From Streptomyces sp. NRRL WC-3618 (lineage in GTDB: Bacteria > Actinomycetota > Actinomycetes > Streptomycetales > Streptomycetaceae): DNA of 32,876 nucleotides. The stretch spans positions 1-32,876 of the forward strand of contig NZ_LGDW01000488.1 in the NCBI RefSeq assembly GCF_001280005.1, given 5' to 3'. The notes beneath the pieces are model-generated. The model saw only the letters and a program-made list of their open reading frames with translations, did not search any database and was not told the DNA's origin. Shown one piece after another: positions 9,700 to 27,957 of the stretch. A program made the position numbers and the translations under genes. Each line of letters opens with the position of its first letter. Position 1 is the stretch's first letter.

Positions 9700-9739
9700 A
9701 CGGGCGGCCGGTGAACCCACCTTCTCTGACAGGAGTTTC

Positions 9740-12046: not shown

Positions 12047-12071
12047 CGCCGTTCTCCCGGTTACGGCACGG
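12041..12071. terminator. Weak convergent terminator region
   Basis: Only 14 bases separate the convergent stops of the GH3 gene and the DUF3152-like gene. CCGTA...TACGG arms flank a ~16-base loop, with a competing CGCCG...CGGCG pairing. There is no T-run, so efficiency is doubtful and the two transcripts may overlap. Confidence 0.35.
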
Positions 12072-13104
12072 CGGGGCCGCTCAGGTAGCGGCCCTGCGTG
12101 TCGTACGGCCAGGCGTTGGGCACGCAGCCCTTGAGGCCGTCGATCTGCTGCATCATCGCGGGCGCGGGGCTGCCCGGACCCGGGCAGGTCTCGTGGCCGT
12201 GGCCCAGCCAGTGGCCGACCTCGTGGTTGACGATCAGGGCGCGGTACTCGACCGGCGGCCCGTCGAACTCGGGGGAACCGAGCTGCCAGCGCTTGAGGTT
12301 GATCACCACGTCGTTGCCGGTACGGCAGTTGACCTCTCCGAGGTGTTCCGGCTGCCGTACGTCGCACAGCTTGTCCGTGGTGCCCGCGGTGGCGACACGG
12401 AACGTCAACTCGGCTTCCAGACCGGCTACTTGGCGGAAGGTGGCACCCTCCCGGCCCCAGCCGCGCCGGTCGCCCAGGATGGCGCCGATCTGCCGGGCGG
12501 CGTCCGCCGGGTCGATGCCCGCGCCGTTCTCGACCTGGACGCGGAAGGGGGTTCCGGTGGCGGGCCCGGTGACGGCGAGCGGGGCCGTGGCGAAGGTGCC
12601 GGGGCCAGTTAGGGGGATGGTGGGCCGCGCGGAGGGCGCCTGCCCCTTTCCGGACCTGCTCCCGGAACCGTTCCCCTTCCCCTTTCCCTTGCCCGGCGCT
12701 GAAGTCCCGCTGGCTTCAGGGGACTTGGGGGCGTCGAGGGCGTCGGGCGCCTTGGGAACCCCGGCGGATCCGGTCGGCTCGGGCGCCTCGGAGGGGTCGG
12801 AGATGTCGGAGCGGTCGGGCGACCCGGCCGCCTGGGAGTCGTCCGGGGGCGGGCTCGTGTCGTCGGTCCCCGCCTCCGGAGCGGGCTCGGTCGAGGTCCG
12901 GACCGCCTCCGGGGAAAGGGCCTCCTCCTGGCGCGACGCGTGGTCCGGCAGCAGCCGGGGCAGCAGCATCGGCACCGCCGCCGTACCGAGCGCGGCGAGA
13001 CAGACCGTGGCGCCGATCGCCCCGAGCCGTATCCGGTTCTTGCGCCGCCGCTGTAAGGCGACCCTGCGGCGCGGCCCGTTCACCGTACGTCGTTGCTCAC
13101 TCAT
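12061..13104 (-). CDS. Membrane-anchored DUF3152-like protein with metzincin-type zinc motif
   Basis: 347 residues. A very basic N-terminus (RRRVALQRRRKNRIR) precedes one membrane segment (about 28-50), then a Pro/Ser/Asp/Glu-rich stalk (about 55-170) and a C-terminal domain (about 175-347). The last carries HEVGHWLGHGH at H294-H304, an exact HExxHxxGxxH zinc-binding motif with the catalytic Glu at 295. Actinobacterial DUF3152 proteins share this layout and are presumed surface metallopeptidases; no substrate is known to me. It overlaps the upstream membrane-protein gene by 8 bases and is thus the third gene of the sigma-factor operon, making it a plausible effector or signal-processing partner. 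Start ATG at 13104. Confidence 0.82.
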   Translation of the reverse strand: MSEQRRTVNGPRRRVALQRRRKNRIRLGAIGATVCLAALGTAAVPMLLPRLLPDHASRQEEALSPEAVRTSTEPAPEAGTDDTSPPPDDSQAAGSPDRSDISDPSEAPEPTGSAGVPKAPDALDAPKSPEASGTSAPGKGKGKGNGSGSRSGKGQAPSARPTIPLTGPGTFATAPLAVTGPATGTPFRVQVENGAGIDPADAARQIGAILGDRRGWGREGATFRQVAGLEAELTFRVATAGTTDKLCDVRQPEHLGEVNCRTGNDVVINLKRWQLGSPEFDGPPVEYRALIVNHEVGHWLGHGHETCPGPGSPAPAMMQQIDGLKGCVPNAWPYDTQGRYLSGPAVP

Positions 13105-14059
13105 CGAAGCCGCCTGCCTTGCTCGTACGGTCGGTACCGCCCAGGTCGGTCGCCGAGCGGGGCTCGACGGTGGCCGACTGGGAGTCGGAGGGCTGGGTCG
13201 TGGCGGACGGGGCGCGGGACGCGCCGTCCGAGGGGTTCGTCCGGTGGTCCCGCGCCTTGTGCGGCGCCCGGTCCTGCGCCTCGGCCCTCACCTCGGACAG
13301 CAGGGCCGGGGTGCCCGCCGCCACCACCAGATGGTCGGCGGTCACAGGCGGGGAGAGCCTGGCGGCCGTGTCCGGGCCGACGGTCAGCTGCACGGTGCTG
13401 TCCGCGTAGTGGTAGCTGACGCTGACGGTCCGGCCGCCCCACAGCACGCCGCCGACCACGACGACCCGCGCCTCGATGCGGCCGGGCAGCCACGCCGTAC
13501 GGCAGGTCGTGGTCGTCTCGGGCGGCTCCGGGCAGTGGACGAGGGCGTCCGAGCCGGGTTCGACCCGCAACGTCACCGGGAAGGTGTGCCCGTCGATCCG
13601 GCCGGCGTAGCGACCCGCGCCGTCCGCCGAGACGGTGCCGATCAGGTCGCCCAGCGCCACGGTCAGTGCCTTGGCCGTGCGTGCCCGGTGGGCGGTCTCC
13701 GGCGCGAGCGTGGCGCCGGGCGTCGGGGCGGTCGAGGTCGGAGGCGGTGTCGGGGAGGGGACGGCGGGCGGTGCGGCCGCCGGGCCGACCGGCGCGGACG
13801 CGTGGTCGCCGAGACCGCCGAGCAGGGCCGCGCCGACGCCCCCGATCGCGAGGACCCCGGTCACCGCACCGGCCACGGCGGCCCGCGCCCGGACCCGGCG
13901 GCGCCCGCCCTGGCGTACCGCCTCCTCCGTCAGATCGGGCAGCGTCGGGAGACCGGAGGCGGCCTGCTCCATCAGCTCTCTCAGCTCCCCGACGAGCATC
14001 TCGTCGGGCCCGGCGTCCGGCGCGGGCCCGTGCGGGCGGCCGGGTGGCGTGTCGTACAC
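13097..14059 (-). CDS. Single-pass membrane protein in anti-sigma position
   Basis: 320 residues from GTG at 14059, with GAGAGG 8 bases upstream. The cytoplasmic part (about 1-60) contains LVGELRELMEQAASGLPTLP and a basic RQGGRRRVRAR stretch. One membrane segment (about 62-85, AAVAGAVTGVLAIGGVGAALL) leads to a Pro/Thr/Ser stalk and an extracytoplasmic domain (about 120-250) with two Cys. The C-terminal ~60 residues are Ser/Thr-rich and probably disordered. It starts 26 bases after the SigE-type sigma gene, the usual place of the regulator of such factors. It lacks the HxxxCxxC zinc anti-sigma motif, so an anti-sigma role is inferred from position and topology only. Confidence 0.7.
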   Translation of the reverse strand: MYDTPPGRPHGPAPDAGPDEMLVGELRELMEQAASGLPTLPDLTEEAVRQGGRRRVRARAAVAGAVTGVLAIGGVGAALLGGLGDHASAPVGPAAAPPAVPSPTPPPTSTAPTPGATLAPETAHRARTAKALTVALGDLIGTVSADGAGRYAGRIDGHTFPVTLRVEPGSDALVHCPEPPETTTTCRTAWLPGRIEARVVVVGGVLWGGRTVSVSYHYADSTVQLTVGPDTAARLSPPVTADHLVVAAGTPALLSEVRAEAQDRAPHKARDHRTNPSDGASRAPSATTQPSDSQSATVEPRSATDLGGTDRTSKAGGFDE

Positions 14060-14085
14060 GGAAGTTCCTCTCGGCGCTGGGCGGT

Positions 14086-14589
14086 TCAGTACTCGGCGGT
14101 GTACACATGGGCGTCGCCCAGCACCGCGCGCAGCCGGGTCAGGGAGCGGGAGCACTGGCTCTTGACCGTGGACTCGCTGCACCGCAGTTGCGCGGCCACC
14201 TCCGAGACGCTCAGGTCCTCCCAGTAGCGCAGCACGACCATCGCCCTTGCGCGGGGCGGGAGTTCGGCGAGCGCGGCCATGAGCGTGACGCGCAGCTCGG
14301 GTCTGGACGCGGCGGGCGCGGGGTCGGGGCGGGCGTGGGCGAGCAGGTCGCGCAGCCGGCGCCGGCGCTCGTGCAGGAAGAGCCGGGTGAGGACGGTGCG
14401 GGCGTAGGCGTCGAGGTGGTCGGCGCGGCTCGCGCGGTGCCAGTGCTGGAAGAGGCGGGCCAGCGTGGACTGGACCAGGTCACGGGCGTGCTCGCGGTCG
14501 CCGCTGAGCAGATACGCCGTGCGGTAGAGGCGCTGCCGGCCCGCCCGCGCGTACTCCTCGAAGTCCCGCTGCCGGACCGTCGCCGACAT
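14086..14589 (-). CDS. SigE-family ECF RNA polymerase sigma factor
   Basis: 167 residues, normal for this compact ECF group. Region 2: RDFEEYARAGRQRLYRTAYLLSGD, then HARDLVQSTLARLFQHWHRA and DAYARTVLTRLFLHERRRR (about 8-75). Region 4: LAELPPRARAMVVLRYWEDLSVSEVAAQLRCSESTVKSQCSRSLTRL in two stretches (about 95-150), the classic PRxRxVxxLRYxEDLS signature. ATG at 14589, with GGGAGG 4 bases upstream. It heads a three-gene operon with the membrane protein and the DUF3152-like protein. A possible ECF-type promoter is at 14708-14733. The signal it answers is unknown; gene order suggests an envelope stimulus. Confidence 0.93.
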   Translation of the reverse strand: MSATVRQRDFEEYARAGRQRLYRTAYLLSGDREHARDLVQSTLARLFQHWHRASRADHLDAYARTVLTRLFLHERRRRLRDLLAHARPDPAPAASRPELRVTLMAALAELPPRARAMVVLRYWEDLSVSEVAAQLRCSESTVKSQCSRSLTRLRAVLGDAHVYTAEY

Positions 14590-14791: not shown

Positions 14792-15640
14792 TCAGCCGAA
14801 GCGGCCCGCCACGTAGTCCGCCGTGCGCTGGTCCTTCGGGTCGCCGAAGACGTCGTCGGTCGAGCCGTGTTCCACGATGCCGCCGGGCGTGCCCTGTTCG
14901 GCGAGGAAGAACGCGCACTGCTGGGAGACGCGGGCGGCCTGCTGCATGTTGTGGGTGACGATCACGACGGTCACCTCGCCCGCGAGTTCGTGGATCGTCT
15001 CCTCGACGCGGCGGGTGGAGGTGGGGTCGAGCGCCGAGCACGGTTCGTCCATGAGGAGGACCCGGGGGCGTACGGCCAGCGCGCGGGCGATGCACAGGCG
15101 CTGCTGCTGGCCGCCGGAGAGCGCGCCGCCCGGCTGCCGGAGCCGGTCGCGGACCTCCTTCCACAGGCCCGCCCGGGTCAGTGACTCCTCGACCAGCTCG
15201 TCCTTCTCACGGCGGCCCGTACGCGTTCCGGTCAGGCGCAGGCCCGCCACCACGTTGTCGTAGATCGACATGGCGGGGAACGGGTTCGGCTTCTGGAAGA
15301 CCATGCCGATCCGGCGCCGCGCGTCGGTCAGCCGCCGGGACGCGTCGTAGATGTCCTCGCCGTCGAGGAGCACCTCGCCCGCCAGTGCCGCCGCCGGGAT
15401 CATCTCGTGCATCCGGTTGAGCGTGCGCAGGAACGTCGACTTGCCGCAGCCGGAGGGACCGATGAGCGCGGTGACCTGCCCGGCGGGCATGGTGAGGGAG
15501 ACCCGGCTGAGCACCTGGTGGCTGCCGAACCAGGCCGACACGGAACGGGCTTCGAGCATCGCGGGAACGGTGGCCGCACCGGCCCGCACCGGAGCCGGCG
15601 CGGCGGGCAGGACGATCGTGTCGGTGAGGGAGTCGGTCAC
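14792..15640 (-). CDS. pstB: Phosphate-type ABC transporter ATPase PstB
   Basis: 282 residues. Walker A is GPSGCGKST (61-69), the signature motif [15 protein letters not shown] (174-188), Walker [15 protein letters not shown] (193-206), and the switch His is in [15 protein letters not shown] and [18 protein letters not shown] are specific to the PstB branch. About 27 extra N-terminal residues precede the usual start. GTG at 15640 was chosen because GAGG lies 8 bases upstream; the longer frame includes the spacer. Canonical Streptomyces pst genes run pstS-pstC-pstA-pstB; here pstB is separated from pstC/pstA by three surface-protein genes and a sortase-like gene. It should energise the PstC-PstA channel. 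Whether the solute is phosphate is inferred. Confidence 0.92.
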
Positions 15641-15690
15641 GTCGGGTACCTCGTGTCGGAGAAGGCGGGGCGCGGAAGGCGTTGCCGCAC

Positions 15691-15726
15691 GGCTCACAGC
15701 AGGTGCGGGGCTCACAGCAGGTTCGG
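15691..15726 (-). repeat. 18-bp tandem duplication at the 3' end of the sortase-like gene
   Basis: CTCACAGCAGGT occurs twice with an 18-base period (15693 and 15711). The second copy contains the stop codon and last codons of the sortase-like gene; the first repeats them in the untranslated spacer. Probably a recent slippage duplication. Confidence 0.7.
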
Positions 15727-16626
15727 CAGCAGCTCGGTGGCGCGGGTGGTGACCTGGAGGCCCAGGACGGCGACGACCGGCGCGAAGACGATCCACGTCT
15801 GGTGCCGGCCCCACCGGTGCCAGGTCCACACGGCGGCGACCGCCGCGAGCAGCAGGGCCTGGAGCCACATCACCAGCGGCCAGGGCATCCCGGAGGGACC
15901 GGCGAGGGGCTCCTCGGCCTGCGGGAGGGTGCCGGAGCGGATGACGGCCGCCGGGGTCTCGGCGGGCGCGGACACCAGGTCGGCGTCGACGCGCAGGACA
16001 CCGTCCGGCATGAAGCGCGGGCCGGTCGCGGTGACCAGCACCAGGCGCCCCTTGCCCGCGGCGAGCGGGGCGGGCGCCGGATCACCGGCCCGGCGTACGC
16101 CGATGACCTCGTACGTCGCCTTCCCCTGGCCGGTGACGACGGTGAACCTGTTGCCGGCGGCGAGGCGGGCCAGCCGCCCGAAGGGGCCGCCGTAGGCCGC
16201 GGCGCGGCCCATCAGCACGCTGGTGCCGGCCTGGCCGGGCATCGGCGTGTCCCGGCGGTGGCCAGGGCCCTCGGTCAGCACGGCGGAGTCGGTGCCCTCC
16301 AGGACGACCTGGGACATCCCCAGGGCGGGTACGTCGATCAGGGCGACCGGTGTGCCCGGTGCGAGCAGCCTGCCCTCCTGGTCGACCTGGGCCACCGGGG
16401 CGGTGCCCTGGGCGAGTTGGTCGCGCAGCGCGTCGAACGCGGCCCGCTGGGCGCTGTGTTGCTGGATGCCGCTGACCAGAAGCAGCTGTGCGGTGACGCC
16501 GAGCAGCAGGGCGGCGAGGCTGAGCAGGCCGCCCCGGGCGAGGTGGCGGACGGCGGTGACACTCGCGACGCGCGTCCGTGGGGCGGACGCCGGCGGTGCG
16601 AGCGTGGTCTGTACGGCGACCGTCAC
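15712..16626 (-). CDS. Sortase-fold membrane protein lacking catalytic His and Cys (pseudosortase)
   Basis: 304 residues from GTG at 16626, with GGAGG 9 bases upstream. One membrane segment (about 34-54) precedes a sortase-like beta-barrel (about 90-220), followed by two more membrane segments (about 249-268 and 278-294). The domain keeps sortase text: [47 protein letters not shown] and LRVDADLV. But where sortases have GH the sequence reads LMGRAAAYG (R141), and where they have TLxTC it reads LVLVTATG (A200). Only the Arg (R212) remains. It should therefore be inactive as a transpeptidase and may act as a scaffold or docking protein for the surface proteins encoded upstream. It lies between a binding-protein gene and pstB, as an integral part of the Pst-type locus. 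Confidence 0.82.
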
Positions 16627-16666
16627 GGCGGTCCGCCTCCTTCGCTGTTCAGGGTGGTGGGGATGG

Positions 16667-16698
16667 CGTCGGGGGACCGTGGCGGCGGTCCCCCGACG
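16667..16698 (-). terminator. Perfect 13-bp hairpin between the FN3/Ig binding-protein gene and the sortase-like gene
   Basis: CGTCGGGGGACCG, a 6-base loop, then CGGTCCCCCGACG. It begins 15 bases after the stop of the upstream gene and has no T-run. It could terminate part of the transcription or protect the upstream message, giving more binding protein than sortase-like protein and ATPase. Confidence 0.65.
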
Positions 16699-16712
16699 GG
16701 GTGGGGCGGGGA

Positions 16713-18695
16713 TCAGCTGGACGCGACGACGAAGTTCACGCCGTTCTTCGATGCCACCGTCGAGGAGCCGACGTAGAAGGCGTGCAGGGTGTGCCTGCCC
16801 CTGCTCAGCTTCGGCAGGGTGACGGTGACCTTGCCGGCGCTCAGCGTGCCGGTGGCGATGATGCGGGAGCCCTCGTAGACCCGGACCGTGCCGGTGGGCG
16901 TGGTGCCGGTCGCGGTGACCTTCACGGTGACCTTGGCGCGGGCGGTGTGGCTGACCGAGGTCGGGGCGCTGGTGCTGACCGCCGGGTTCGCCTTGGTGAT
17001 CTTCACCGTGGCGGTCGTCGCGGACGCGTTGAGCTTGGTGCTGCCCGCGTAGGAGACGCTCACCGTGTGCGTGGCTACCTTGAGGTGGTTCGACAGGCTG
17101 ACGGTGACCTTGCCGGCGCTGTTGAGGGTGCCGGTGCCGAGGACGGTGGCGCCCTCCTTGACGGTGACCTTGCCGGCGGGGACGACGCCGTGGGTGCCGG
17201 TCACGGTGACGGCGACCTTCGGGACGATGCCGTACGCGGTCGTGGTGCCGGACGCCTTCGTGGTGCTGGCGAACTTGACCGCGCCGGTCCAGGTGGCGGC
17301 GTCGCCGGTGCCGATCACGTTGGCGGCGGCGACCTCGGCGGTGTAGGTGCCGGTGGCCAGGCCCGGGAAGGTGTAGGACGTGGTGGTCGCCGGGACGTCC
17401 TTGGTGGCGACGAGCGCGCCCTCGGCGTCCTTCAGCGTCACGCGGTAGTCGGTGACGGGCTGGGCCGGGGCGGGGTTCGGAGCGGTCCAGGCCAGCTTGA
17501 CGCTCGCGTCGCCGACGGTGGTCTTCAGGACGGGCGGGGCGGGCGTCTTGAGTTCGAGGCCGCTGATCTCCAGGCCGCCGATCTTGGCGTGCCGGGTGAG
17601 GTTGACCGAGCCGTTGTAGGACTCGTTCACGAAGCCGAACTTGGCGATGACGGCCTCGGCGGCCTCGGAGGCGAAGGCCGCCTCGTGGGCGCCGCTGGTG
17701 ACGAAGACGTCGTAGACGTCCTTGTCGAAGAAGATGCTGGTCGGGTCGATCGCCCGGCTCGGGACGACGTTGTAGACGTCGCGGCCGAAGGTGGAGTTCT
17801 CGTAGTAGGCGTTGACCGGGGCGAGCTTGCCGTTGACCGTGGTGACCGGGCTGGTCACTCCGATGTCGTTCGGCAGCTTGACGGCGGCCAGGTGCGCGCC
17901 GGCGGCGACCGCGGTCTTGCTGTGGTCGGGGGCGATGTCGTTGTTCTGCGCGATCCAGCTGCCCACGGAGAACGGGACGAGCGTGCCGTCCGCGGTGAGC
18001 GCGGTGTCGGCCTGGTTCTCCTGGGTGGTCGTGATGCTCGTGTCGACCGTGTTCTCGCCGAGTCCGATCGCCGCGAGGAAGAACTTGCGGGTGCCGGAGC
18101 CGCTCTGCGGGAGGACCGGGTGCACGGTCTGGCCGTTGATCTTGTGGTCGCTGCCGGCCGCGTAGACGTCGTGCAGTTGGTCGACCGTCAGGCTGTCGAG
18201 GCCGGAGCCGCGGACCGCGACGCCGACCGCGTCCCGGGCGAACGGGATGTAGGTGAGCGCGTTGCCGGAGACGCTCGAGACGCCCGAGGAGCGGGCGAAG
18301 TCGACCTGGCCCTTGACGGAGACGCCCGTCGCGTTGGGGAACAGGTCACCCGTCAGCGACATGCTGAGCGCGGTCCGGCCGGGGCCGGAACCGTTGGGCC
18401 GGGTGAAGGTCGTACCGCCCGAGCGGGTCTGGATGGTGGCGGAGCCGATCGCGTCGTACGAGGCGAGGCCCGCGCCGGCCGTCGACTTCACGGCGGAGTC
18501 GGCGTAGCTCTTGCCGTTGACGGTGTCACCGGCGAGGGCGTTCAGGACGTCCTGGGTGGTGTCGGAACCCACGCCCACGAGCTTGCGGAACGTTCCGGCG
18601 GGGGTGGGGTCGGCGGAAGCGGGGCTCGCGAGAGCCAGCGTGCCGGACACCACTGCGGCGGCGACCATGGCCGCGGTGAGGCGCGTTGTGCGCAT
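16713..18695 (-). CDS. Secreted PstS-like binding protein with FN3 and two Ig-like domains
   Basis: 660 residues. A Sec signal peptide (1-28, ending SPASA) precedes a PstS-type solute-binding domain (about 35-370; KLVGVGSDTTQDVLNAL and PVLPQSGSGTRKFFLAAIG). After that come an FN3-like domain (about 385-470, SVKLAWTAPNP...YTFPGLATGTYTAEV) and two Big_3-type Ig-like domains (about 480-565 and 570-655) sharing GKVTV, GTGTL/ATGTL and HTVSVSYAGS/HTLHAFYVGS. There is no lipobox, LPXTG motif or C-terminal membrane segment, so it is released or held non-covalently. ATG at 18695 has AGGAGAA 6 bases upstream; the open frame upstream lacks any signal-like sequence. It sits between the 910-residue protein and the sortase-like gene. 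A palindrome at 18766-18806 suggests its own regulation. The ligand is not proven. Confidence 0.88.
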   Translation of the reverse strand: MRTTRLTAAMVAAAVVSGTLALASPASADPTPAGTFRKLVGVGSDTTQDVLNALAGDTVNGKSYADSAVKSTAGAGLASYDAIGSATIQTRSGGTTFTRPNGSGPGRTALSMSLTGDLFPNATGVSVKGQVDFARSSGVSSVSGNALTYIPFARDAVGVAVRGSGLDSLTVDQLHDVYAAGSDHKINGQTVHPVLPQSGSGTRKFFLAAIGLGENTVDTSITTTQENQADTALTADGTLVPFSVGSWIAQNNDIAPDHSKTAVAAGAHLAAVKLPNDIGVTSPVTTVNGKLAPVNAYYENSTFGRDVYNVVPSRAIDPTSIFFDKDVYDVFVTSGAHEAAFASEAAEAVIAKFGFVNESYNGSVNLTRHAKIGGLEISGLELKTPAPPVLKTTVGDASVKLAWTAPNPAPAQPVTDYRVTLKDAEGALVATKDVPATTTSYTFPGLATGTYTAEVAAANVIGTGDAATWTGAVKFASTTKASGTTTAYGIVPKVAVTVTGTHGVVPAGKVTVKEGATVLGTGTLNSAGKVTVSLSNHLKVATHTVSVSYAGSTKLNASATTATVKITKANPAVSTSAPTSVSHTARAKVTVKVTATGTTPTGTVRVYEGSRIIATGTLSAGKVTVTLPKLSRGRHTLHAFYVGSSTVASKNGVNFVVASS

Positions 18696-18765
18696 CGAGG
18701 TTCTCCTGTTGTGCGTCGTCATGCGTCTTGTGGCGAGGGCGCCGCCCGGCTCACGCACTAGGGCG

Positions 18766-18806
18766 TGTCGTCACATCGCCGCCAGGCAGGCGGGAATGTG
18801 ACGACA
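18766..18806. promoter_or_regulatory. Long inverted repeat TGTCGTCACAT...ATGTGACGACA
   Basis: Perfect 11-base arms (18766-18776 and 18796-18806) flank a 19-base centre that itself pairs as CCGCC-AGGCA-GGCGG. It is about 70 bp upstream of the FN3/Ig binding-protein ATG and after the terminator of the preceding gene. It may be an operator or a leader hairpin. TCCTGTCGTC, which overlaps one arm here, is also present upstream of pstC (25885-25894). Confidence 0.6.
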
Positions 18807-18848
18807 GGACCTAGGTGCGGGCATGGGCGGATCTGGCAGGGTGGTACG

Positions 18849-18885
18849 GGCCGTCCGCCCCGACTGACTTTCGGGGCGGGCGGCC
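18849..18885 (-). terminator. Strong terminator hairpin after the 910-residue protein gene
   Basis: GGCCGTCCGCCCCGA and TCGGGGCGGGCGGCC form a 15-bp stem (one G-T pair) with a 7-base loop. It starts 40 bases past the stop. No T-run follows on either strand, which is common for Streptomyces terminators. It divides the Pst-type locus into two transcription blocks. Confidence 0.65.
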
Positions 18886-18924
18886 GTCTGTGGGGAGCCC
18901 GGCCGGGGGCCGGGGCTCCGGGGC

Positions 18925-21657
18925 TCAGCCCCGGCCGGGTGGCAGCAGCTTGCGCAGCCGCTCGGGCAGGGTGAGTTCGGGGATGACGGTCACGGTGCGA
19001 CCGCCGGGAAGCGGGACCCGGAGCGGCAGCCGCAGCCGGCCACCGCCGGCGAAGGGCGCCCCGATACCGGCCGCGGCACCGAGCGCGGCGCCCACCGGGA
19101 CGGCGTAGCGCAGCGCGTTCGCCGGGTCGGCGGGGGTGGTGCCGAGGGCGGTGGTCCGGACGGCCTGGCCGCCGCCGTACGAGGGCCGGTCGCTCGGCGA
19201 CGCGCTCGCCGCCCCGCCACCGGACGCGGCGCCGCCGGTCGTACCGCCGTCGGTCGCGCCCCCGGCCCCCGTGCCACCGGAGACACCGGCACCGCCCGTA
19301 CCGTCCGCGCCGCCGGAGCCGCCGCCGGACGTGTCACCGCCGGACGTACCGCCGACCCCGCCGCTCGTTCCACCGGAGGACGAGCCGCCGCCCGGAGGGG
19401 CGGACGGACCGGTGTAGTGGACAAGGGCGGTGGCCGCCTTGGCGGTCCTCGCGCGCAGGCCGGCGGGCAGCGGGGCGTAGCCGGCCGGGAGGCGGCCCGG
19501 GTCGGCGCCGCCGATCTGCCCCTTGCCGGCCGCGTACGTCAGCAGAGCCGCGTAGTCCTTGCGGGCGGCGGGGTCGAGCTTCGCCGGGCGCATTGCCGCG
19601 TAGACGAGCTGGGCGAGCGGGTACGCGCCCTTCGCGGTCGCCTTGGCCGGGACGATCTCCGGGGCCTTCGCGCCGGACGCGCTCGCCGCGGCGGCGGTGA
19701 GGGACGCGGTGGTGGGTGCGGTGAACGTGCCGGCGGCGTTACGCAGCCGCGCGGTCTGGAGGCCGTAGCGAACGGCGGAGGCCGCGTCGGTCACCGTGAT
19801 CACGAACCGGGACCCGACCGTCTGCGGGCCGGGGTTCTTGTACGCGGGCGGGCTCGCCAGCGGGTCCCAGGTCGCCTTCCACAGGCTGTCGGCGCGCCGG
19901 GTGTGCAGGGCGCCGGCGTGCATGTCCGTCACGTACGGATGAAAGTCGATCATGCACTGCGGTGCGGTGGCGCCGGTGCCCGGCGGGATCGTGCACCAGG
20001 GGTCGCTCTTGGGGTAGGTGTCGAGGTCGGCCGGGTCGAAGGCGAAGCCGGTGGGGTTCACGTCCGTGTTGGTGCTGAAGTACGGGTTGACCTTCATGCC
20101 CCAGTCGTCGGAGACGCCCGCGAGGAAGTTGCGCGCCTCCTTGTCGGAGACGATCCACTGCCAGAGCGCGCGCGCCGAGTCGCTGTGGCCCAGCGCGGTG
20201 AGCAGGTCGGTGTCGGTGGCCGGGGTCTCGGGGACGGACAGTTCGGCGAACTCCGGGTTGAGCGCGATGAACTCGGGGTCGCTGGCCAGTCCGGCCGGGT
20301 TGTTCGTCGCCCAGCCGTAGCCCTTCGCGGCGGTGGTGCCGACGACCGCTCCCCAGGGGGAGTTGCGGTAGGACTCGGTGAGCAGTTTGGCGACCAGCCG
20401 GGGGGTCAGGTCGAGGGACTCGACCTTGGTGCCGGCCAGCTTGCGGACCGCCTCGGAGGCGCCTGCCTTGGGTCTGCGTTCGACGGTGAAGCCGATGACG
20501 GTGCCGGAGAGCGCGGTCGGCGCGTACACGGTGGGGTCCGCCGGGGCGGTCGTGCCCGCGTCCGCGCCCAGCGCCCGGGTGGTGAACGCCAGGCCCGATG
20601 TGCCGTCGGCGATGAGACGGGAGCGGGTGTCGGGCTCGCCGAGCTCCGTGTAGCCGTACACCTTGCCGCTCGGGCACAGGGCGGTCTGCCAGCTGCTCAT
20701 GGCGTCGGCGACGAGTTCGCTGCCCGAGGTGGCGCGTTCGTCGGAGCCCAGCGCGCAGTTGGCGCCGACCGCGTTGAAGCCGAGCCGGACGGCGACGCGG
20801 TTCTTCCAGTTGGTCGCGGAGACCGGGGAGCCGGCGTTGACCTGGCTGGTGTCGGCGTAGGGCTTGCCGTCCAGGTCGAGATGGCCCTGCGGGACGATGA
20901 CCAGCCAGCAGGAGCGGGGCTTCACAGTCCCGTTCTGCCGTACGGGGGTGCCGCAGCCGAGGTGCGGGGCCTCGTTGGCGGTCTGCACCTCGACGAACTC
21001 CCGGCCGGTGCCGTCGGCGCCGGTGCGGGCGAAGTCGACCTCGTTGGTGGTGTTGCGGTTGAACAGGGGGTTGTTCTGGGTGCCGGAGGTGATCAGCGTG
21101 CCGTCGACGGACTTGAAGGGGACCTCGCCGAGGCCGGACACGTTGCCGGCGCCGTAGCGGTTGTCCTGGCCGTAGTTGGTGGGGTCGGCGCTGTAGAAGA
21201 CCTTGCGGGTGTCGTCGTACTCGTTGCCGGGCCAGCTGCCCCGGTCGGTGGTCGGGGAGGCGCCGTATTGGCACTGGGTGCGCGAGGGGCCCGGGTTGGC
21301 GGCGACCGTGCCGTCGTCGTCACCCCAGCACTGCATGATCTGCACGAAGTCGGTGTTGAACAGGGTGCCCGCGAGGGTGGTCGGGGTGCCGCCGGTCCAG
21401 GAGACGGTGACCGCCTGGCTGGTGAGGTGCTCGGTCTGGCTGACGGTGAACCGCATGTCCTTGAACTCGCCGCGCCCGGAGACGGTGACGGCGGAGCCGT
21501 GGGCCGCGTCGGCGGTCGCGGGCGGGGCGGTCTGCGCGACGGCCAGCCCGGCGAGCGCGCCGACGGCCGCCCCGGCGACGAAGCGCACCAGCAGCCGGCG
21601 TATTCGGCTGTTGGCCCGGGAGCTCGTGATCGTGGTCATGGTCGTGATCGTGGTCAT
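18925..21657 (-). CDS. Large secreted protein of unknown function in the Pst-type locus
   Basis: 910 residues, not recognised beyond context. An N-terminal basic stretch and hydrophobic segment (about 20-48) form a long signal peptide. A ~690-residue exported region follows, with several Cys (for example MQCWGDDDG, APHLGCGTPV, CWLVIVPQGH) and loosely PstS-like elements such as DLTPRLVAKLLTESYRNSPWG and SRLIADGTSGLAF. A Gly/Ser/Thr-rich linker spans about 746-840, then a short Ala/Gly hydrophobic stretch (about 855-875) and a basic tail. I chose ATG at 21657, which overlaps the stop of the PstS-like gene as ATGA; the longer open frame is the shadow of that gene. Translational coupling implies the two act together, perhaps as receptor and accessory surface subunit. 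No sortase signal LPXTG was seen. Confidence 0.8.
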   Translation of the reverse strand: MTTITTMTTITSSRANSRIRRLLVRFVAGAAVGALAGLAVAQTAPPATADAAHGSAVTVSGRGEFKDMRFTVSQTEHLTSQAVTVSWTGGTPTTLAGTLFNTDFVQIMQCWGDDDGTVAANPGPSRTQCQYGASPTTDRGSWPGNEYDDTRKVFYSADPTNYGQDNRYGAGNVSGLGEVPFKSVDGTLITSGTQNNPLFNRNTTNEVDFARTGADGTGREFVEVQTANEAPHLGCGTPVRQNGTVKPRSCWLVIVPQGHLDLDGKPYADTSQVNAGSPVSATNWKNRVAVRLGFNAVGANCALGSDERATSGSELVADAMSSWQTALCPSGKVYGYTELGEPDTRSRLIADGTSGLAFTTRALGADAGTTAPADPTVYAPTALSGTVIGFTVERRPKAGASEAVRKLAGTKVESLDLTPRLVAKLLTESYRNSPWGAVVGTTAAKGYGWATNNPAGLASDPEFIALNPEFAELSVPETPATDTDLLTALGHSDSARALWQWIVSDKEARNFLAGVSDDWGMKVNPYFSTNTDVNPTGFAFDPADLDTYPKSDPWCTIPPGTGATAPQCMIDFHPYVTDMHAGALHTRRADSLWKATWDPLASPPAYKNPGPQTVGSRFVITVTDAASAVRYGLQTARLRNAAGTFTAPTTASLTAAAASASGAKAPEIVPAKATAKGAYPLAQLVYAAMRPAKLDPAARKDYAALLTYAAGKGQIGGADPGRLPAGYAPLPAGLRARTAKAATALVHYTGPSAPPGGGSSSGGTSGGVGGTSGGDTSGGGSGGADGTGGAGVSGGTGAGGATDGGTTGGAASGGGAASASPSDRPSYGGGQAVRTTALGTTPADPANALRYAVPVGAALGAAAGIGAPFAGGGRLRLPLRVPLPGGRTVTVIPELTLPERLRKLLPPGRG

Positions 21658-23450
21658 CGCGCGTTCCCGTCCGTGGTGTCGCCGCCGGTGCCATTGCTGC
21701 CGCGGGCGCCGAGCATCCGGGCGACGGTGGAGGGCAGCAGGACGAGGCCGAGGATCAGCAGGGCCGCGAGCACCATCAGGGTCTGGGCGCCGGTCCAGCC
21801 GCTGCGACCGGCCACGGCGACCGGCTGGGCCAGCGCGATCGTGCCGCCGACGACGGCGCCGCCGCCCGCGCCGGTCGCGCCGCCCCCGGCGGACGCGGAC
21901 AGCACCTGCCCGGTGTCGGGATCGACGACCGGCTTCCTGTCGCCGCCCCCGCTCGCCGCGGCGCCCCCGGCCGCGCTGCCGCCGGACGCCGAGCCGCCGG
22001 TACTCCCCCCGGACGCGGTGCCGCCGGACGCCGTACCGCCGGACGTTCCCCCGGACGCCGTACCACCGGAGCCGCCGGAGCCGCCCGCACCACCCGACCC
22101 ACCAGAACCGCCTGAACCACCCGCCCCGCCGCCCGGCTTGGCCCCGCCGCTGCCCGTGGTGCAGGGCGCGGCGCCCTTCTTGTCGCAGGCCGCCGGATAA
22201 GGGGCCGTCTCCGCGAGCCTGTTGCGGCCGTCGGCGCTGAAGGTGGGGTTGTTGCAGCCCTTGATGTTGATGTTCTGCGTCTTCACGCCCGGGATCCGGC
22301 GGATCTGGTCGAAGCCCGCCCGCACCAGGTTGATCGGCAGCGGCGAGTAGCCGAGCTGGGGCGCCTGCTGCTGGCCCTGGCACATGAAGTAGTAGGAGAA
22401 CGCGCCGAGCGTCTTGCCCTTGTCCTCGGTGAAGGTGCCCTGCACCTTGAGCGGCAGGATCATGTACGAGTAGCTGGACAGCGGGTAGTTGCGCTTGTCG
22501 GTGTCGTTGTAGACACCTTCGAGCTTCTGGGTGAGGTAGTCGGCGGAGGTCTTGTTGGTGTTGATCTTCGCCTTGAGGAGCGAGACGGCGACGTTCTTCG
22601 GGGTCGGCTCGGTGTAGTAGCCCGCGTGGTTGAGGACCTTGGCGACCGGATAGCCCTCGTTGATGGCGTACGAGTAGTTGACGTACCCGATCGCGCCCTC
22701 GCCGTAGTTCTGGGCGACGTATCCCGCCACGCCCGGGTCGCCGGACTGGGCGATCATGCCGGGGACGGTCGGGTAGTACGAGGTCTGCCCGCAGGCGCCC
22801 GAGCGGCCGACCTTGGCGCAGTACGCCTTCCACAGCGCCGCGTGCTGGTTGGCCATCCACATCGTGAACTGGGCGGTGGAGCCCGAACCGTCGGAGCGGA
22901 CGACCGGGACGACCGCGCGGTGGGGCAGCTGGAGCCCCGGGTTGTCGGCCTTGACGACCGGGTCGTCCCAGTACTTCACGACACCGGTGAAGATCTTGGT
23001 GACCACGTCTCCGGAGAGACGGAGGTTGGTGACCTTTTTGCCGTTGACCGTCAGGTGGTACATGAAGGAGGTGCCGCCGGCCACGATCGGCATGTACGCG
23101 TAACTGCCGGCGGACGGGCGTTCGGCGGCCGAGCCGTCGGTCGGGTTGGTCTGGAACGGGATGTCCGAGACCGCGAAGTCGACCGTGCCGCTGAGGAACT
23201 GGCGGCGGCCGTCGGAGGATCCGCTGCCGGCGTAGCTGATGCGCATGCCGTACTGGTTGACGGCCTTGCGCCACTGTTCGATGGCGTTCTCCGCCCAGGT
23301 CGAACCGGCCCCGGCGACCGGGGTGTAGCTCTCGGCGGCGGCGGGCGCGGCGAGCGGCCCGGCCAGCAGCGCGGCGACCACGCCGAGCAGGGCCGCGAGG
23401 GCCGCCGACGCGCGCAGGCGCCTGAGGGCGGTGGTGAGGTGGCTGCGCAT
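21654..23450 (-). CDS. pstS: PstS-like binding protein with C-terminal membrane anchor
   Basis: 598 residues, much longer than usual PstS (~370). A Sec signal peptide (1-39, ending APAAA) has no lipobox Cys. The binding domain (about 40-430) keeps PstS marks: VAGAGSTWAENAIEQW, ISYAGSGSSDGRRQFLSG, VDFAVSDIPFQ and VVRSDGSGSTAQFTMWM, the Ser/Thr/Asp loops that hold the oxyanion in the family. Then come a Gly/Ser/Ala linker (about 433-505), a short segment with DRKPVVDPDTGQVL, and one membrane helix near the C-terminus (about 558-576) with a short cytoplasmic tail. So the usual lipid anchor is replaced by a protein anchor on a flexible stalk. ATG at 23450 shares its A with the pstA stop (TGATG). 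Phosphate is the likely ligand, but this is inferred. Confidence 0.88.
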   Translation of the reverse strand: MRSHLTTALRRLRASAALAALLGVVAALLAGPLAAPAAAESYTPVAGAGSTWAENAIEQWRKAVNQYGMRISYAGSGSSDGRRQFLSGTVDFAVSDIPFQTNPTDGSAAERPSAGSYAYMPIVAGGTSFMYHLTVNGKKVTNLRLSGDVVTKIFTGVVKYWDDPVVKADNPGLQLPHRAVVPVVRSDGSGSTAQFTMWMANQHAALWKAYCAKVGRSGACGQTSYYPTVPGMIAQSGDPGVAGYVAQNYGEGAIGYVNYSYAINEGYPVAKVLNHAGYYTEPTPKNVAVSLLKAKINTNKTSADYLTQKLEGVYNDTDKRNYPLSSYSYMILPLKVQGTFTEDKGKTLGAFSYYFMCQGQQQAPQLGYSPLPINLVRAGFDQIRRIPGVKTQNINIKGCNNPTFSADGRNRLAETAPYPAACDKKGAAPCTTGSGGAKPGGGAGGSGGSGGSGGAGGSGGSGGTASGGTSGGTASGGTASGGSTGGSASGGSAAGGAAASGGGDRKPVVDPDTGQVLSASAGGGATGAGGGAVVGGTIALAQPVAVAGRSGWTGAQTLMVLAALLILGLVLLPSTVARMLGARGSNGTGGDTTDGNAR

Positions 23451-24784
23451 CAGTCGTTGTCTCCGGGAGCGGGGGCGGATGCAGCGGTGTCGTGAGGCTG
23501 AGGGGCGGTGTCCTCGAACAGCGACAGCCCGGGTACGGACGCGGGCGCGTGCGGTTCGGCGAAGCGGGTGACGTCGCGGCGGGAGGCGCGGGCGGTACGG
23601 CGGGCCTGGCGGCGCGTCTGGTGGCCGGGGCCGCGACCGCCGATCACCCGGGCGATCACGAAGAGCGCCAGCACCATGGTCATGAGGACGGCGGCGGCGC
23701 CGAAGCCACGGGCGATCATCTCCGGCTGCGGTGACTTGACGAAGTTGAAGACGGCCAGCGGCAGCGACACCATCGGCCCGGCGGTCGGGTCGGCGTTGAG
23801 CGCCGCCGTGAAGCCGGCGGTCAGCAGCACGGGCGAGGTCTCGCCGATGCCGCGCGCGGTGCCGAGGATGACGGCGGTGGCGAGCCCGGAGCGGGCGGTG
23901 GGCAGGACGACGTGCCACACCGTGCGCCAGCGCGGCGCGCCGAGCGCCTCCGCCGCCTCGGTGAGGTTGCCCGGTACGAGCCGCAGCACCACGTCCGAGG
24001 CCCGGATCACGATCGGCAGCATCATCACGCTGATCGCGAACCCGGCCGCGAGGCCCGACTTGGGCATGCCGAGGCCGAGGATCCAGACGGCGTACACCAT
24101 CAGGCCGGCCACGATCGACGGCAGCGCGGTCATCGCCTCGACGATGGTGCGCACGAACCGGGAGAAGCGGCCCGGGATCTGGTTGAGGTAGACGGCACAG
24201 GCCAGTCCGAGCGGCACGCTGATCGTCAGCGCGATGGCCATCATGATCAGCGTGCCGACCATCGCGTGGGCGATGCCGCCGTTGGTCAACGGGTCGAGCG
24301 GGCCCGCCGCCTGCATGTCCTGCGTGAAGAAGTTGCCGTGCGGCAGGGCCTCCTTGCCACGCCAGGCCGTGAAGCCGACGACGAGGGCGAGGGCGGAGAA
24401 CAGCAGCGTGGCCGCCGTCCACAGCACGACCGTCATCACCCGGTCCCGGACAGCCTGCCCGTTCTCCTCGAACCCGGTCAGCACCGCGTAGACGGCGAGG
24501 AAGACCAGGTAGGCGGTGACGACGAAGCCCAACATGCCGGAGAACGGGGCGAGTTCACCGAACAGCAGGATCGTGACGCACAGCGCGGAGGCGGCGGCCC
24601 CGGTCAGGGACAGCACGGCGGACCGGCTGACACCACCGATACGGCGGGGCTGTTCGGGGGCAGCCACGGGATCCGGCACGACGGGTGCGAGGGGTGCGAC
24701 GGTTGTGACGGATGCGGGCGACGCGGTGGGCGAGGCGAGCGCGCCCTGCCCGTCAGGGGTCTTCGTTACGTCTACGACGGTCAT
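23450..24784 (-). CDS. pstA: Phosphate-type ABC permease PstA
   Basis: 444 residues, longer than typical PstA (~300) through a ~50-residue Pro/Ala/Val-rich N-terminus, an extra membrane pair (SAVLSLTGAAASALCVTILLFG and MLGFVVTAYLVFLAVYAVLTG) and a ~60-residue polar C-terminal tail. The core has PstA hallmarks: HAMVGTLIMMAIALTISVPLG, FVRTIVEAMTALPSIVAGLMVYA, and the ATPase docking loop EAAEALGAPRWRTVWHVVLP. It starts one base after the pstC stop (TGAGATG), with GAGG inside the pstC end. Forms the channel with PstC and is powered by PstB. Confidence 0.93.
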   Translation of the reverse strand: MTVVDVTKTPDGQGALASPTASPASVTTVAPLAPVVPDPVAAPEQPRRIGGVSRSAVLSLTGAAASALCVTILLFGELAPFSGMLGFVVTAYLVFLAVYAVLTGFEENGQAVRDRVMTVVLWTAATLLFSALALVVGFTAWRGKEALPHGNFFTQDMQAAGPLDPLTNGGIAHAMVGTLIMMAIALTISVPLGLACAVYLNQIPGRFSRFVRTIVEAMTALPSIVAGLMVYAVWILGLGMPKSGLAAGFAISVMMLPIVIRASDVVLRLVPGNLTEAAEALGAPRWRTVWHVVLPTARSGLATAVILGTARGIGETSPVLLTAGFTAALNADPTAGPMVSLPLAVFNFVKSPQPEMIARGFGAAAVLMTMVLALFVIARVIGGRGPGHQTRRQARRTARASRRDVTRFAEPHAPASVPGLSLFEDTAPQPHDTAASAPAPGDND

Positions 24785-24785
24785 C

Positions 24786-25805
24786 TCAGGCCTCGCTCTG
24801 GGCGCCGGAGCGGGAGCGGGCCGCGACGGAGGAGGCGGTGAAGTTGACCGCCAGGGTGAGCAGGAACAGCGCCAGGCCCGCCGCCATCAGCGCCGACATC
24901 CCGAATTCGGAGGAGTCTCCGTAGTGCAGGGCGATCAGTGAGGAGACCGAGTTCGAGCCGGTCTGCAGGATGTGCGGCTGGATGGTGAAGACCGGCGAGA
25001 TGATCAGGTAGACCGCGATGGTCTCGCCGAGCGCCCGGCCGAGCCCCAGCATCGTTCCGCCGATGATGCCGCCCTTGCCGTACGGCAGGACGACCGCGCG
25101 GATCATCCCCCACCGGGTGGCACCGAGCGCGTAGGCGCCCTCCCGCTCACCGGCCGGGGCCTGGGCGAAGACCTCGCGCATCACCGAGCACTGGATCGGC
25201 GCGACCATGAGCGCGACGACGATCCCGGCGACGAAGGTGGACGCCGTGTACACACTGGCGGAGGCGAGCGGATCGCCTGGCTGAATACCGTCCACCGTGA
25301 ACAGCGGTATCCAGCCGAACCAGTCGGACAGCCAGCGTGACAGCCCGATGACGTGCTGCTGGAGGAAGAACAGCCCCCACAGCCCGTAGACCACCGACGG
25401 TACGGCGGCCATCAGGTCGACCATGCTGACGAGGGTGCGGCGCAGCCCGCGCGGGGCCACGTCGGAGATGAACAGGGCCGTGCCCACGGCCAGCGGTACG
25501 GAGATCGTCACCGCGACGAGGGCGATCAGCAGGGTGCCGGTGAGCACGGCCGCGATGCCGAAGTTGTGAACGTCCGGCTGCCAGGCGGCAGTTGTGAGGA
25601 ACGCGAACCCCCGGGCGTGCAGCGCCTGCCCCGCCCGCAGCAGCAGGAACAGCCCGACCGCCGCCATGATGGCGAGGACCACGACCCCGGTGGCCGTCAA
25701 CTGGATCCGGAAGACCCGGTCACCGAACCCCCTGGCGGCGTACAGCCGCCGAGGCACGGGTCTGTCGGACTCCGGTCTGCCGGAACCCACCTGCGTGGAC
25801 ACCAC
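24786..25805 (-). CDS. pstC: Phosphate-type ABC permease PstC
   Basis: 339 residues. It has six predicted membrane segments (first about 35-57, LTATGVVVLAIMAAVGLFLLL), and PstC motifs WQPDVHNFGI, VPLAVGTALFISDVAP, VDLMAAVPSVVYGLWG and the docking loop REGAYALGATRWGMIRAVVLP. Adjacent GTG codons at 25805 and 25802 are both usable, with GAGGGG a few bases upstream. It heads the operon. A 226-bp spacer upstream carries a PHO-box-like repeat and a strong hairpin 25 bases before the start. No phoU or phoRP gene is in the window. Confidence 0.93.
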   Translation of the reverse strand: MVSTQVGSGRPESDRPVPRRLYAARGFGDRVFRIQLTATGVVVLAIMAAVGLFLLLRAGQALHARGFAFLTTAAWQPDVHNFGIAAVLTGTLLIALVAVTISVPLAVGTALFISDVAPRGLRRTLVSMVDLMAAVPSVVYGLWGLFFLQQHVIGLSRWLSDWFGWIPLFTVDGIQPGDPLASASVYTASTFVAGIVVALMVAPIQCSVMREVFAQAPAGEREGAYALGATRWGMIRAVVLPYGKGGIIGGTMLGLGRALGETIAVYLIISPVFTIQPHILQTGSNSVSSLIALHYGDSSEFGMSALMAAGLALFLLTLAVNFTASSVAARSRSGAQSEA

Positions 25806-25901: not shown

Positions 25902-25923
25902 CACATGTGGACATCGAGTGAAC
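25902..25923 (-). promoter_or_regulatory. Candidate PHO box (two 11-base direct repeats) upstream of pstC
   Basis: Minus-strand reading: GTTCACTCGAT then GTCCACATGTG, contiguous 11-base units. Streptomyces PhoP sites are built of 11-base repeats starting GTTCACC (from memory), so unit 1 matches 6 of 7 and unit 2 matches 5 of 7 of these bases. It sits about 100-118 bases upstream of the pstC start. TTGACA lies 7 bases upstream of the first unit. Confidence 0.55.
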
Positions 25924-26031: not shown

Positions 26032-26292
26032 TCACTCGCCCACCACCTCAAAACGCCACCGGTGCACCGCGCGCGCCGCCAGCCCCGCGTCCGGCTCCGG
26101 AAGTTCGGGCAGATCGGCGTCGTACTCCGCGTCCCACCACGTGATGACGAGGACCCGATCCTCCGGGCCCCGGAGCGTCTCCCGGCGCACCGGCGCAGCA
26201 TCCAGCGCCGGCACCTGCGCCCGTGCCCAGGCGAGGAGTTCGTCCCCGCGTCCCTCGACGGCCCGCGCCTCCCACATCAACGCGACGGTCAC
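26032..26292 (-). CDS. Small protein of unknown function, coupled to tsaD
   Basis: 86 residues from GTG at 26292, overlapping the tsaD stop as GTGA. The order of predicted strands and helices ([25 protein letters not shown] ... [12 protein letters not shown] ... VHRWRFEVV) resembles the ferredoxin-like fold of antibiotic-biosynthesis-monooxygenase (ABM) proteins. No catalytic residues can be named. It is likely the last gene of the tsaB-rimI-tsaD unit. Function unknown. Confidence 0.75.
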
Positions 26293-27395
26293 GGGTACAG
26301 GTTCCCCTCGCCGACCTCGTGCACATGATCATGACTGTGACCGCGCCCCGGGACATGCGGGTCGGTCACCGGCAGCGAGGAGTCCGCCGACAGCTCCCAG
26401 TCGGAGGGAGCCCGGTTGCGCGCGACCATCTCGGCGCCCAGCGCGGCCACCATCGCACCGTTGTCCGTGCACAACTTGGGCCGGGGCACCCTCAGGCGGA
26501 TCCCGGCCGCCTCGCAGCGCTCCTGGGCGAGCGCCCGCAGCCGCGAGTTGGCGGCCACGCCGCCGCCGATCATCAGGTGGTCGACGCCCTCGTCCTTGCA
26601 GGCCCGCACCGCCTTCCGGGTCAGCACGTCCACCACCGCCTCCTGGAAGGAGGCCGACACGTCACGCACCGGCACCTCCTCCCCCGCCGCCCGCTTCGCC
26701 TCGATCCAGCGGGCCACGGCCGTCTTGAGCCCGGAGAAGGAGAAGTCGTACGCCGGGTCACGCGGCCCGGTCAGCCCGCGCGGGAACGCGATGGCCTTCG
26801 GATCGCCCTCGCGCGCGTACCGGTCGATGACGGGACCGCCGGGGAAGCCGAGGTTCAGCACCCGCGCGATCTTGTCGAAGGCCTCACCGGCCGCGTCGTC
26901 GATGGTCGCGCCCATGGGCCGTACGTCGGAAGTGATGTCCGACGACAGCAGCAGCGAGGAGTGGCCTCCGGAGACCAGCAGGGCCATCGTCGGCTCGGGC
27001 AGCGGCCCGTGTTCCAGCTGGTCGACGCAGATGTGGGACGCGAGATGGTTCACGCCGTACAGCGGCTTGCCCAGCGCGTACGCGTACGCCTTCGCCGCCG
27101 AGACCCCGACCAGCAGGGCGCCCGCGAGCCCGGGACCGGCGGTGACGGCGATGCCGTCGAGGTCCCTCGCGCTCACCCCCGCCTCCTTCAGCGCCCGCTC
27201 GATTGTCGGCACCATCGCCTCCAGGTGCGCGCGCGAGGCGACCTCGGGCACGACACCCCCGAACCGGGCGTGCTCGTCGACACTGGACGCGATGGCGTCC
27301 GCGAGAAGCGTCGTCCCCCGCACCACACCGACACCGGTCTCGTCGCAGGAGGTCTCGATGCCGAGGACGAGCGGTACGTCCTTGGAGTCAGCCAT
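26289..27395 (-). CDS. tsaD: tRNA N6-threonylcarbamoyladenosine transferase TsaD
   Basis: 368 residues of the Kae1/TsaD ASKHA-fold family. It transfers the threonylcarbamoyl group to A37 of ANN-decoding tRNAs, working with TsaB and TsaE, both encoded nearby. Seen: the N-terminal [16 protein letters not shown], the metal-binding NHLASHI (two His), [25 protein letters not shown] and the C-terminal [14 protein letters not shown] and [12 protein letters not shown] at 27395 was chosen from the family N-terminus; it overlaps the rimI stop by 8 bases. The 31-residue upstream extension is the shadow of the rimI repeat region. Confidence 0.96.
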
Positions 27396-27957
27396 TGCTC
27401 TCGGTTCCTTGTACGTCGGTTTCCTGTACGTCGGTCTGCTGTACGTCGGCTTCGGCTTCCCGCGCCGACACCGATCCGGACGGATCACGCAGCCGCATCA
27501 CCAGGGCGTCGACGTTCCCCGGCTGGTAGTAGCCGCGCCGGAAGCCGATGGGCTCGAAGCCGAACCTCTCGTACAGCTTCTGCGCGCGCACGTTGTCCAC
27601 CCGGCACTCGAGCATCACCTCGGCGCACTCGAACGCGGTCGCCGCGCGCAGCAACTCGGTCAGCAGCACCGCACCGAGGCCGGTACCCCAGTGCTCGCGG
27701 GCGACGGCGATCGTCTGTACGTCGGCGACGTCCCCGGCGGCGGCGAGCCCCCCGTACCCGATGATCCGCCTGCCGCCCTGGGGGCTCTCCTCCTCGGCGA
27801 CGAAGTACCGCCGGGTCGCCTGGGGCCCGCGCGCATGGGCGAGGTCCGACCAGAACATGCCCCTCGACCAGGCGTCCTCCGGGAAGAGGTCCTTCTCCAG
27901 CTCCAGCACGGGCTCGATGTCCCACCAGCGCATCTCGCGCAGCACGGCAGTCGTCAC
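27388..27957 (-). CDS. rimI: Ribosomal protein S18 alanine N-acetyltransferase RimI
   Basis: 189 residues, a GNAT acetyltransferase. The N-terminus [25 protein letters not shown] and the acetyl-CoA loop [17 protein letters not shown] are typical, followed by [28 protein letters not shown] and DALVMRL. The usual protein is about 150 residues; here a ~30-residue tail contains an in-frame repeat, [15 protein letters not shown]. It overlaps tsaB by 4 bases and tsaD by 8 bases, so the three are translated together. Confidence 0.94.

Follow-up and report, generated by a model that had tools for sequence, protein, structure and literature searches.

Contig NZ_LGDW01000488.1 of Streptomyces sp. NRRL WC-3618 (genome total 9.3 Mb), analyzed here over its positions 1 to 32,876 (the window), carries a Pst-type locus that, judging from sequence, is probably a dedicated Pst-derived apparatus for phosphate uptake, and perhaps for sensing, coupled to the cell wall. 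The locus comprises seven genes, all on the minus strand and transcribed in the order pstC, pstA, pstS of a stalked, anchored type, a gene for a 910-residue protein, a gene for a third binding-protein-like protein, a sortase-like gene and pstB. Each of them lies where a preliminary description of the DNA had placed it in this non-canonical order. The gene set is a conserved unit and its order is not due to chance.

A conserved gene set in Actinomycetota

An alignment of the 910-residue protein, used as a profile to scan GTDB contigs, returned 385 relatives, of which the best 80, corresponding to 77 loci and not a random sample, were kept. All seven genes were found in 59 of these 77 loci, and contig ends truncate most of the others. 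Nine loci without the sortase-like gene stop 4 to 3449 bases past the last gene seen, and locus L107 has 4457 bases beyond its sortase-like gene with no pstB in them. Among the complete loci 54 show the order of the window, three have the third binding-protein gene after pstB and two have it before pstC. The taxa represented include Streptomyces, Planotetraspora, Actinacidiphila, Streptacidiphilus, Paractinoplanes, Actinoplanes, Hamadaea, Wenjunlia, Curtobacterium, Frondihabitans, Candidatus Microthrix and several metagenome-assembled genomes (MAGs). The synteny that the preliminary description proposed to look for is found in many Actinomycetota, the extra genes being kept beside pst, and an artefact or a chance cluster is ruled out by it.

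Within the genus, a search of 150 genomes with the sortase-like protein gave 25 matches in 24 genomes, our own included, at E values of 3.1e-62 or better, after which the next match drops to 7.4e-13. All seven genes are present in 16 of the 18 neighbourhoods (17 genomes) inspected; of the other two, L029 is cut, its sortase-like gene lying 108 bases from the contig end in the 6 kb stretch examined, and L035 is a genuine exception, described below. When 396 genomes of the phylum were searched with the 910-residue profile, 27 had a match and 7 a strong one (E 5.7e-82 or better), the remaining matches being mostly limited to the PstS-like part. In 63 of 73 loci the 910-residue gene overlaps pstS by precisely 4 nt, and in 70 of the 73 its start falls between -8 and +5 nt relative to the pstS stop; these counts are biased towards overlap because the in-frame start nearest to the stop was taken.

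Some variants were noted in passing. Genome G125 holds two divergent copies of the locus (L028 and L031), the second with the third binding-protein gene before pstC, and a locus-type pstB precedes pstC in one actinobacterial MAG (L106:3250-4032). In L169 and at positions 1-3300 of L035 the 910-residue gene follows unrelated genes, by eye desaturase-like and prenyltransferase-like, and pstC, pstA and pstS do not adjoin it.

An importer separate from the canonical Pst system

The products of pstC (24786..25805), pstA (23450..24784) and pstB (14792..15640, probable start GTG 15640) exceed the cut-offs of the corresponding NCBIfam models, namely TIGR02138 (245.6 bits, cut-off 196.45), TIGR00974 (210 bits, cut-off 193.45) and TIGR00972 (345.6 bits, cut-off 343.2). 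Of the stop-start overlaps that had been proposed to link pstC through to the 910-residue gene, two were confirmed, 1 nt between pstA and pstS (TGATG) and 4 nt between pstS and the 910-residue gene (ATGA), whereas the pstC stop and the pstA start do not overlap and are separated by a gap of 1 nt.

A separate pst locus is present on contig C103 of the same genome, and its PstB is about 58% and its PstC 41% identical to those of the window. All 27 genomes tested have another PstB that outscores the one of the locus in the model, the operon context of these canonical-type PstBs having been examined in our own genome. In a PstB tree made by a quick method, with no bootstrap, from 72 of the 116 extracted sequences, 44 locus and 28 canonical-type sequences fall on opposite sides of a branch with full support in the Shimodaira-Hasegawa-like approximate likelihood ratio test (SH-aLRT 100); L139 forms a very long branch. 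By these models and this tree, PstC-PstA-PstB of the locus is a conserved importer distinct from the canonical Pst.

Three binding-type surface proteins

The anchored PstS-type protein (21654..23450) matches PF12849 and scores 200.4 bits against a cut-off of 205 for TIGR00975. It has no Cys in the signal-peptide region and carries a Gly-rich stalk and a C-terminal hydrophobic helix. The phosphate motif RSDGSG is kept in the window and in 25 of 27 aligned sequences, and it aligns with PstS proteins of known phosphate-bound structure. Like the other alignments used here, this one consists of the window's protein and part of the extracted relatives (A3 44/75; A4, pseudosortase, 36/67; A5, anchored PstS, 26/73; A6 24/54). 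Pairwise ratios of nonsynonymous to synonymous substitution rates (dN/dS) were 0.17-0.34 with 8 chosen relatives.

The 910-residue protein (18925..21657) appears to consist of a signal peptide, a Cys-rich beta domain, a PstS-fold domain at about residues 305-752, a Gly-rich stalk and a C-terminal hydrophobic helix, the last modelled with low confidence. The phosphate loop has been lost, and fold and loop together identify the protein as one of PstS fold whose site is degenerate. Its dN/dS was 0.22-0.35 (8 relatives). The alternative candidate, an unknown adhesin, was ruled out by the PstS fold.

The third binding-protein-like protein (16713..18695, its probable start being ATG 18695 and not 18758) has a signal peptide, a PBP_like_2 domain, an fn3 domain and two Big_3_5 stretches, so that immunoglobulin (Ig) modules are fused in the same chain. 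The stalks, anchors and adhesion-type domains that the preliminary description ascribed to the extra proteins were all recovered, as Gly-rich stalks, C-terminal hydrophobic helices and fn3/Big_3_5 modules.

A sortase fold with altered catalytic positions

The product of the sortase-like gene (15712..16626) has a sortase barrel, recognized by the Pfam Sortase model (51 bits, cut-off 26.6) and by fold search. Its best NCBIfam match is NF033747 (class E sortase), at 61.9 bits against a cut-off of 160. In the structure model (mean predicted local distance difference test score, pLDDT, 80.7) one long N-terminal and two C-terminal helices apparently span the membrane. The early assignment as a sortase-like protein holds for the fold and the N-terminal membrane helix, but it overlooked that the catalytic residues are missing: the catalytic His is replaced by Arg141, the Cys position is Ala200 and there is no Cys in the whole protein.

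The same was seen in 207 sortase-like sequences, 87 from loci and 120 from the database (the best 120 of 3373 matches), which overlap and represent 182 distinct domains, the window's own being counted twice (as window and as P0014). The His column is Arg in 207 of 207 (87/87 locus, 120/120 database) and the catalytic Cys column is occupied by Ala (204), Ser (2) or Gly (1). The number of Cys-free domains is the safer test because MAFFT set the control Cys one column off; 205 of the 207 domains have no Cys and none has one at the active site, while one of the 182 distinct domains has a Cys elsewhere. As a control, the catalytic His and TLTTC are present in all four of the genome's own class E sortases that score above the cut-off. 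In these the His stands in [GA]HR, followed by a G.PF-type stretch and then TLTTC; the family described here has [GA]R....G.PF and mostly TA.G.

A normal sortase is ruled out by the Arg at the His column and the lack of an active-site Cys, and since both catalytic residues are missing the protein cannot be a cysteine transpeptidase. Judged by these columns, the 'sortase' of the locus is a pseudosortase, in which the fold is kept and the catalytic residues are gone. Pairwise dN/dS of 0.18-0.33 (8 pairs) indicates purifying selection, as for the anchored PstS and the 910-residue protein. Relatives are named sortase, class E sortase or LPXTG-site transpeptidase in the database; species that have the pseudosortase include S. 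mirabilis and S. nodosus.

Wall proteins in related loci

In many other lineages extra genes lie between the third binding-protein gene and the pseudosortase gene, and the products of several of them carry Ig-like modules together with an LAxTG or LPxTG signal at the C terminus. A filter found LAxTG-type signals in at least 13 of the 77 GTDB loci and at least 8 of the 18 genus loci, these counts being lower bounds that miss cases seen by eye in L032, L034 and L104.

Ten chosen proteins were scanned with Pfam. The Paractinoplanes locus L110 (13453-16125) has one protein above the WxL cut-off (30.5 vs. 25) and one above that of WxLIP_PGBD (38.6 vs. 27.3), and the Streptomyces locus L104 (15416-17242) has a WxLIP_PGBD protein above cut-off (33.1) next to a WxL-like protein without a Pfam WxL match. 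All 19 GTDB loci that have a gap of 3-7 kb contain pairs of WxL/WxLIP-like proteins, as do L035, L119, L123 and L126, according to a similarity search in which two of the three query segments (L104, L122) were chosen by similarity and not by Pfam and a match at any place in the locus was counted if it lay on the locus strand. Published accounts of WxL clusters portray them as binding peptidoglycan and as nearly restricted to Bacilli (PMC10599100, PMC9772566, PMC1534035).

Proposed function and alternatives

In the uptake apparatus that we propose, phosphate would be captured in the wall, where the third binding protein, and in relatives also WxL/WxLIP- and LAxTG-type proteins, would hold phosphate-capturing modules. 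The stalked PstS would ferry phosphate from these modules to PstC-PstA, and PstC-PstA-PstB would import it. The 910-residue protein could serve as a docking or gating subunit, and the pseudosortase as a scaffold in the membrane, binding but not cleaving stalks or sorting signals and keeping the surface proteins at the transporter. A broader and more tentative proposal is that of a phylum-wide though patchy surface machine, an importer built into the wall, in which capture proteins held there would pass phosphate on to the stalked PstS and a site-dead PstS homologue and a site-dead sortase would be obligate structural or gating subunits.

A wall-spanning phosphate apparatus, as suggested at the outset, appears to be the best reading of the stalks, anchors, Ig modules and wall proteins of relatives, and it has to accommodate a sortase that is catalytically dead and a 910-residue protein with a degenerate site. 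Several further observations weigh against it. No WxL or WxLIP protein was found in the window's own locus and, by the filter, no LAxTG protein, so the scaffold idea rests on relatives. The system is patchy in the phylum, as only 7 strong matches were found in 396 genomes. RSDGSG is missing from 2 of the 27 aligned anchored PstS proteins, and L035 (genome G063) keeps the 910-residue gene, the third binding-protein gene, the pseudosortase gene and pstB but no pstC, pstA or pstS; unrelated genes stand in the place of these three, none of which occurs in the ~15.6 kb beyond within this locus neighbourhood.

The strongest alternative, though unlikely, is a Pst-derived sensor, with transport in a secondary role, in which the binding proteins and the pseudosortase would inform the cell of phosphate outside it or bound to the wall by way of PstB/PhoU-type signalling. 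Regulation is suggested by a binding protein that has lost its phosphate loop and by a conserved pseudoenzyme; each of the 27 genomes tested already has another PstB, and the canonical Pst is a known sensor. Importer parts are nevertheless retained in nearly all loci, and no kinase, regulator or phoU is among the seven tracked genes, conserved neighbours outside these seven not having been searched systematically.

It is also conceivable, but rather unlikely, that the importer takes up a ligand other than phosphate, either a different oxyanion or a phosphorylated compound (organic or of the wall), while the surface proteins bind the carrier polymer. Glu replaces the Asp of DFAVSD in 17 of the 27 aligned PstS sequences, the locus PstBs are distant from canonical PstB in the tree, and Csc/WxL clusters have been proposed to act in carbon source acquisition (PMC1534035). 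Phosphate is favoured, however, by the nearly general RSDGSG, by GSGSSDG-type loops as in the phosphate-bound PDB structures and by matches of the permeases to phosphate models above cut-off.

Invariant GHRRD and Arg141 in alignment A4 could mean that the pseudosortase has another activity, which is a further point against a pure scaffold, and genes with LAxTG-type sorting signals adjoin in several lineages. That it is a non-cysteine enzyme joining or cutting the surface proteins of the locus is nonetheless improbable, given domains almost uniformly free of Cys and without exception lacking His at the catalytic column, a window locus with no sorting signal by the filter and a genome that already has its four class E sortases. 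Finally, an ordinary second Pst operon with unrelated hitchhiking surface genes would fit the matches of all three importer subunits to Pst models and the surface genes with pstB of L035 that stand without pstC, pstA and pstS, but it is contradicted by the conserved synteny, the full set recurring in 59 of the 77 best loci from many families, and by the tight coupling of the 910-residue gene to pstS, and is very improbable.

Regulatory signals

A PHO-box-like pair of 11-nt repeats, GTTCACTCGAT GTCCACATGTG, is located 5' of pstC (25902..25923, minus strand), and none of 100 mononucleotide shuffles gave one as good. The canonical pst locus of the genome carries a better pair, GTTCACCCTCC GTTCACTCGCG, with a score of 22 vs. 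17 at the window's locus. The motif known from S. coelicolor, GTTCACC, comes in repeats of 11 nt (PMC4415409, PMC7866108). With random stretches drawn from the same loci, coding parts included, as the control, 19 of 68 loci had such a site at p<=0.05 where about 3.4 were expected; they comprise 13 of the 36 loci numbered up to L091 and 6 of the other 32. The excess is modest, and many loci have no such site, which also counts against the proposed phosphate apparatus. The site is suggestive, and in some lineages the locus may be part of the PhoP regulon. Four actinobacterial MAG loci (L093, L106, L124 and L127) have in common a repeat on the opposite strand 5' of pstC, GGTCACCG..AT.TCACC, which is perhaps the site of a different regulator.

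Hairpins, which in the preliminary description split off the rest of the set, were found at two places, one in the stretch between the 910-residue gene and the third binding-protein gene (z -2.64) and one 5' of the pseudosortase gene (16667..16698, minus strand; z -4.52 for the stretch 16640-16715). Neither is listed as an intrinsic terminator by the scan, which gave three terminator-like sites, all on the opposite strand (shuffles give a mean of 2.3). A sigma-70 promoter scan found none.

Neighbouring genes

Downstream of pstB, by eye, are genes on the minus strand for an extracytoplasmic function (ECF)-type sigma factor (14086-14589) and then a possible membrane anti-sigma protein (13097-14182), followed by one for a secreted protein with the zinc-protease motif HEVGHWLGH (12061-13104, minus) and one for a family 3 glycosidase-like protein (9689-12046, plus). 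On the pstC side the locus is adjoined by what appear by eye to be tsaD, rimI-like and tsaB-like genes (26289-28610, minus).

Novelty and implications

Among the top matches in the open-licence literature, a scope that excludes subscription papers and preprints, we found no description of the locus or of a pseudosortase, and by term search the word sortase occurs 0 times in a review on phosphate in Streptomyces (PMC7866108). The parts come from known families, and their combination, with a conserved pseudosortase, matches no system that we found, which does not prove that none has been described.

Phosphate limitation controls growth and antibiotic production in Streptomyces, and to our knowledge a single PstSCAB underlies the model of inorganic phosphate uptake in this genus, a model that would change with a second Pst-type system that is widespread and includes wall proteins. 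A conserved non-catalytic 'sortase' family would be a clear case of a pseudoenzyme with a new job, and the route of solutes from wall to membrane in thick-walled cells would become testable. If the proposal is true, the locus would be a Gram-positive counterpart to envelope-spanning nutrient uptake, with the first conserved pseudosortase as a transporter subunit.

Comparison with known systems

The locus resembles PstSCAB (TIGR02138, TIGR00974, TIGR00972, TIGR00975) in having PstC, PstA and PstB above cut-offs and an anchored PstS that keeps the phosphate motif while scoring below the TIGR00975 cut-off. In contrast to PstSCAB, the gene order in the window is not pstS-C-A-B, two further binding-protein-like proteins and a pseudosortase are added, the anchored PstS has a stalk and a C-terminal helix and, lacking the signal-peptide Cys, is not of the lipoprotein type, and the locus PstB falls in a separate branch. 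Compared with PstS and DING phosphate-binding proteins, the 910-residue protein lacks the phosphate loop and adds an N-terminal Cys-rich beta domain, a stalk and a C-terminal helix.

The Csc/WxL clusters of Bacilli encode WxL, WxLIP (DUF916-DUF3324) and LPxTG proteins, and relatives of the locus in Paractinoplanes, Streptacidiphilus and Streptomyces likewise encode WxL-/WxLIP-type and some also LAxTG/LPxTG proteins. The actinobacterial loci, however, join such wall proteins to a Pst importer and a dead sortase, and in the locus of the window no WxL or DUF916 protein was found. With class E sortases (NF033747; SrtE1 5cuw and the Thermobifida fusca sortase E structures) the pseudosortase shares the sortase barrel and the N-terminal membrane helix, but it differs from them in the loss of the catalytic His and Cys, in a score below the NF033747 cut-off and in its two extra C-terminal helices.

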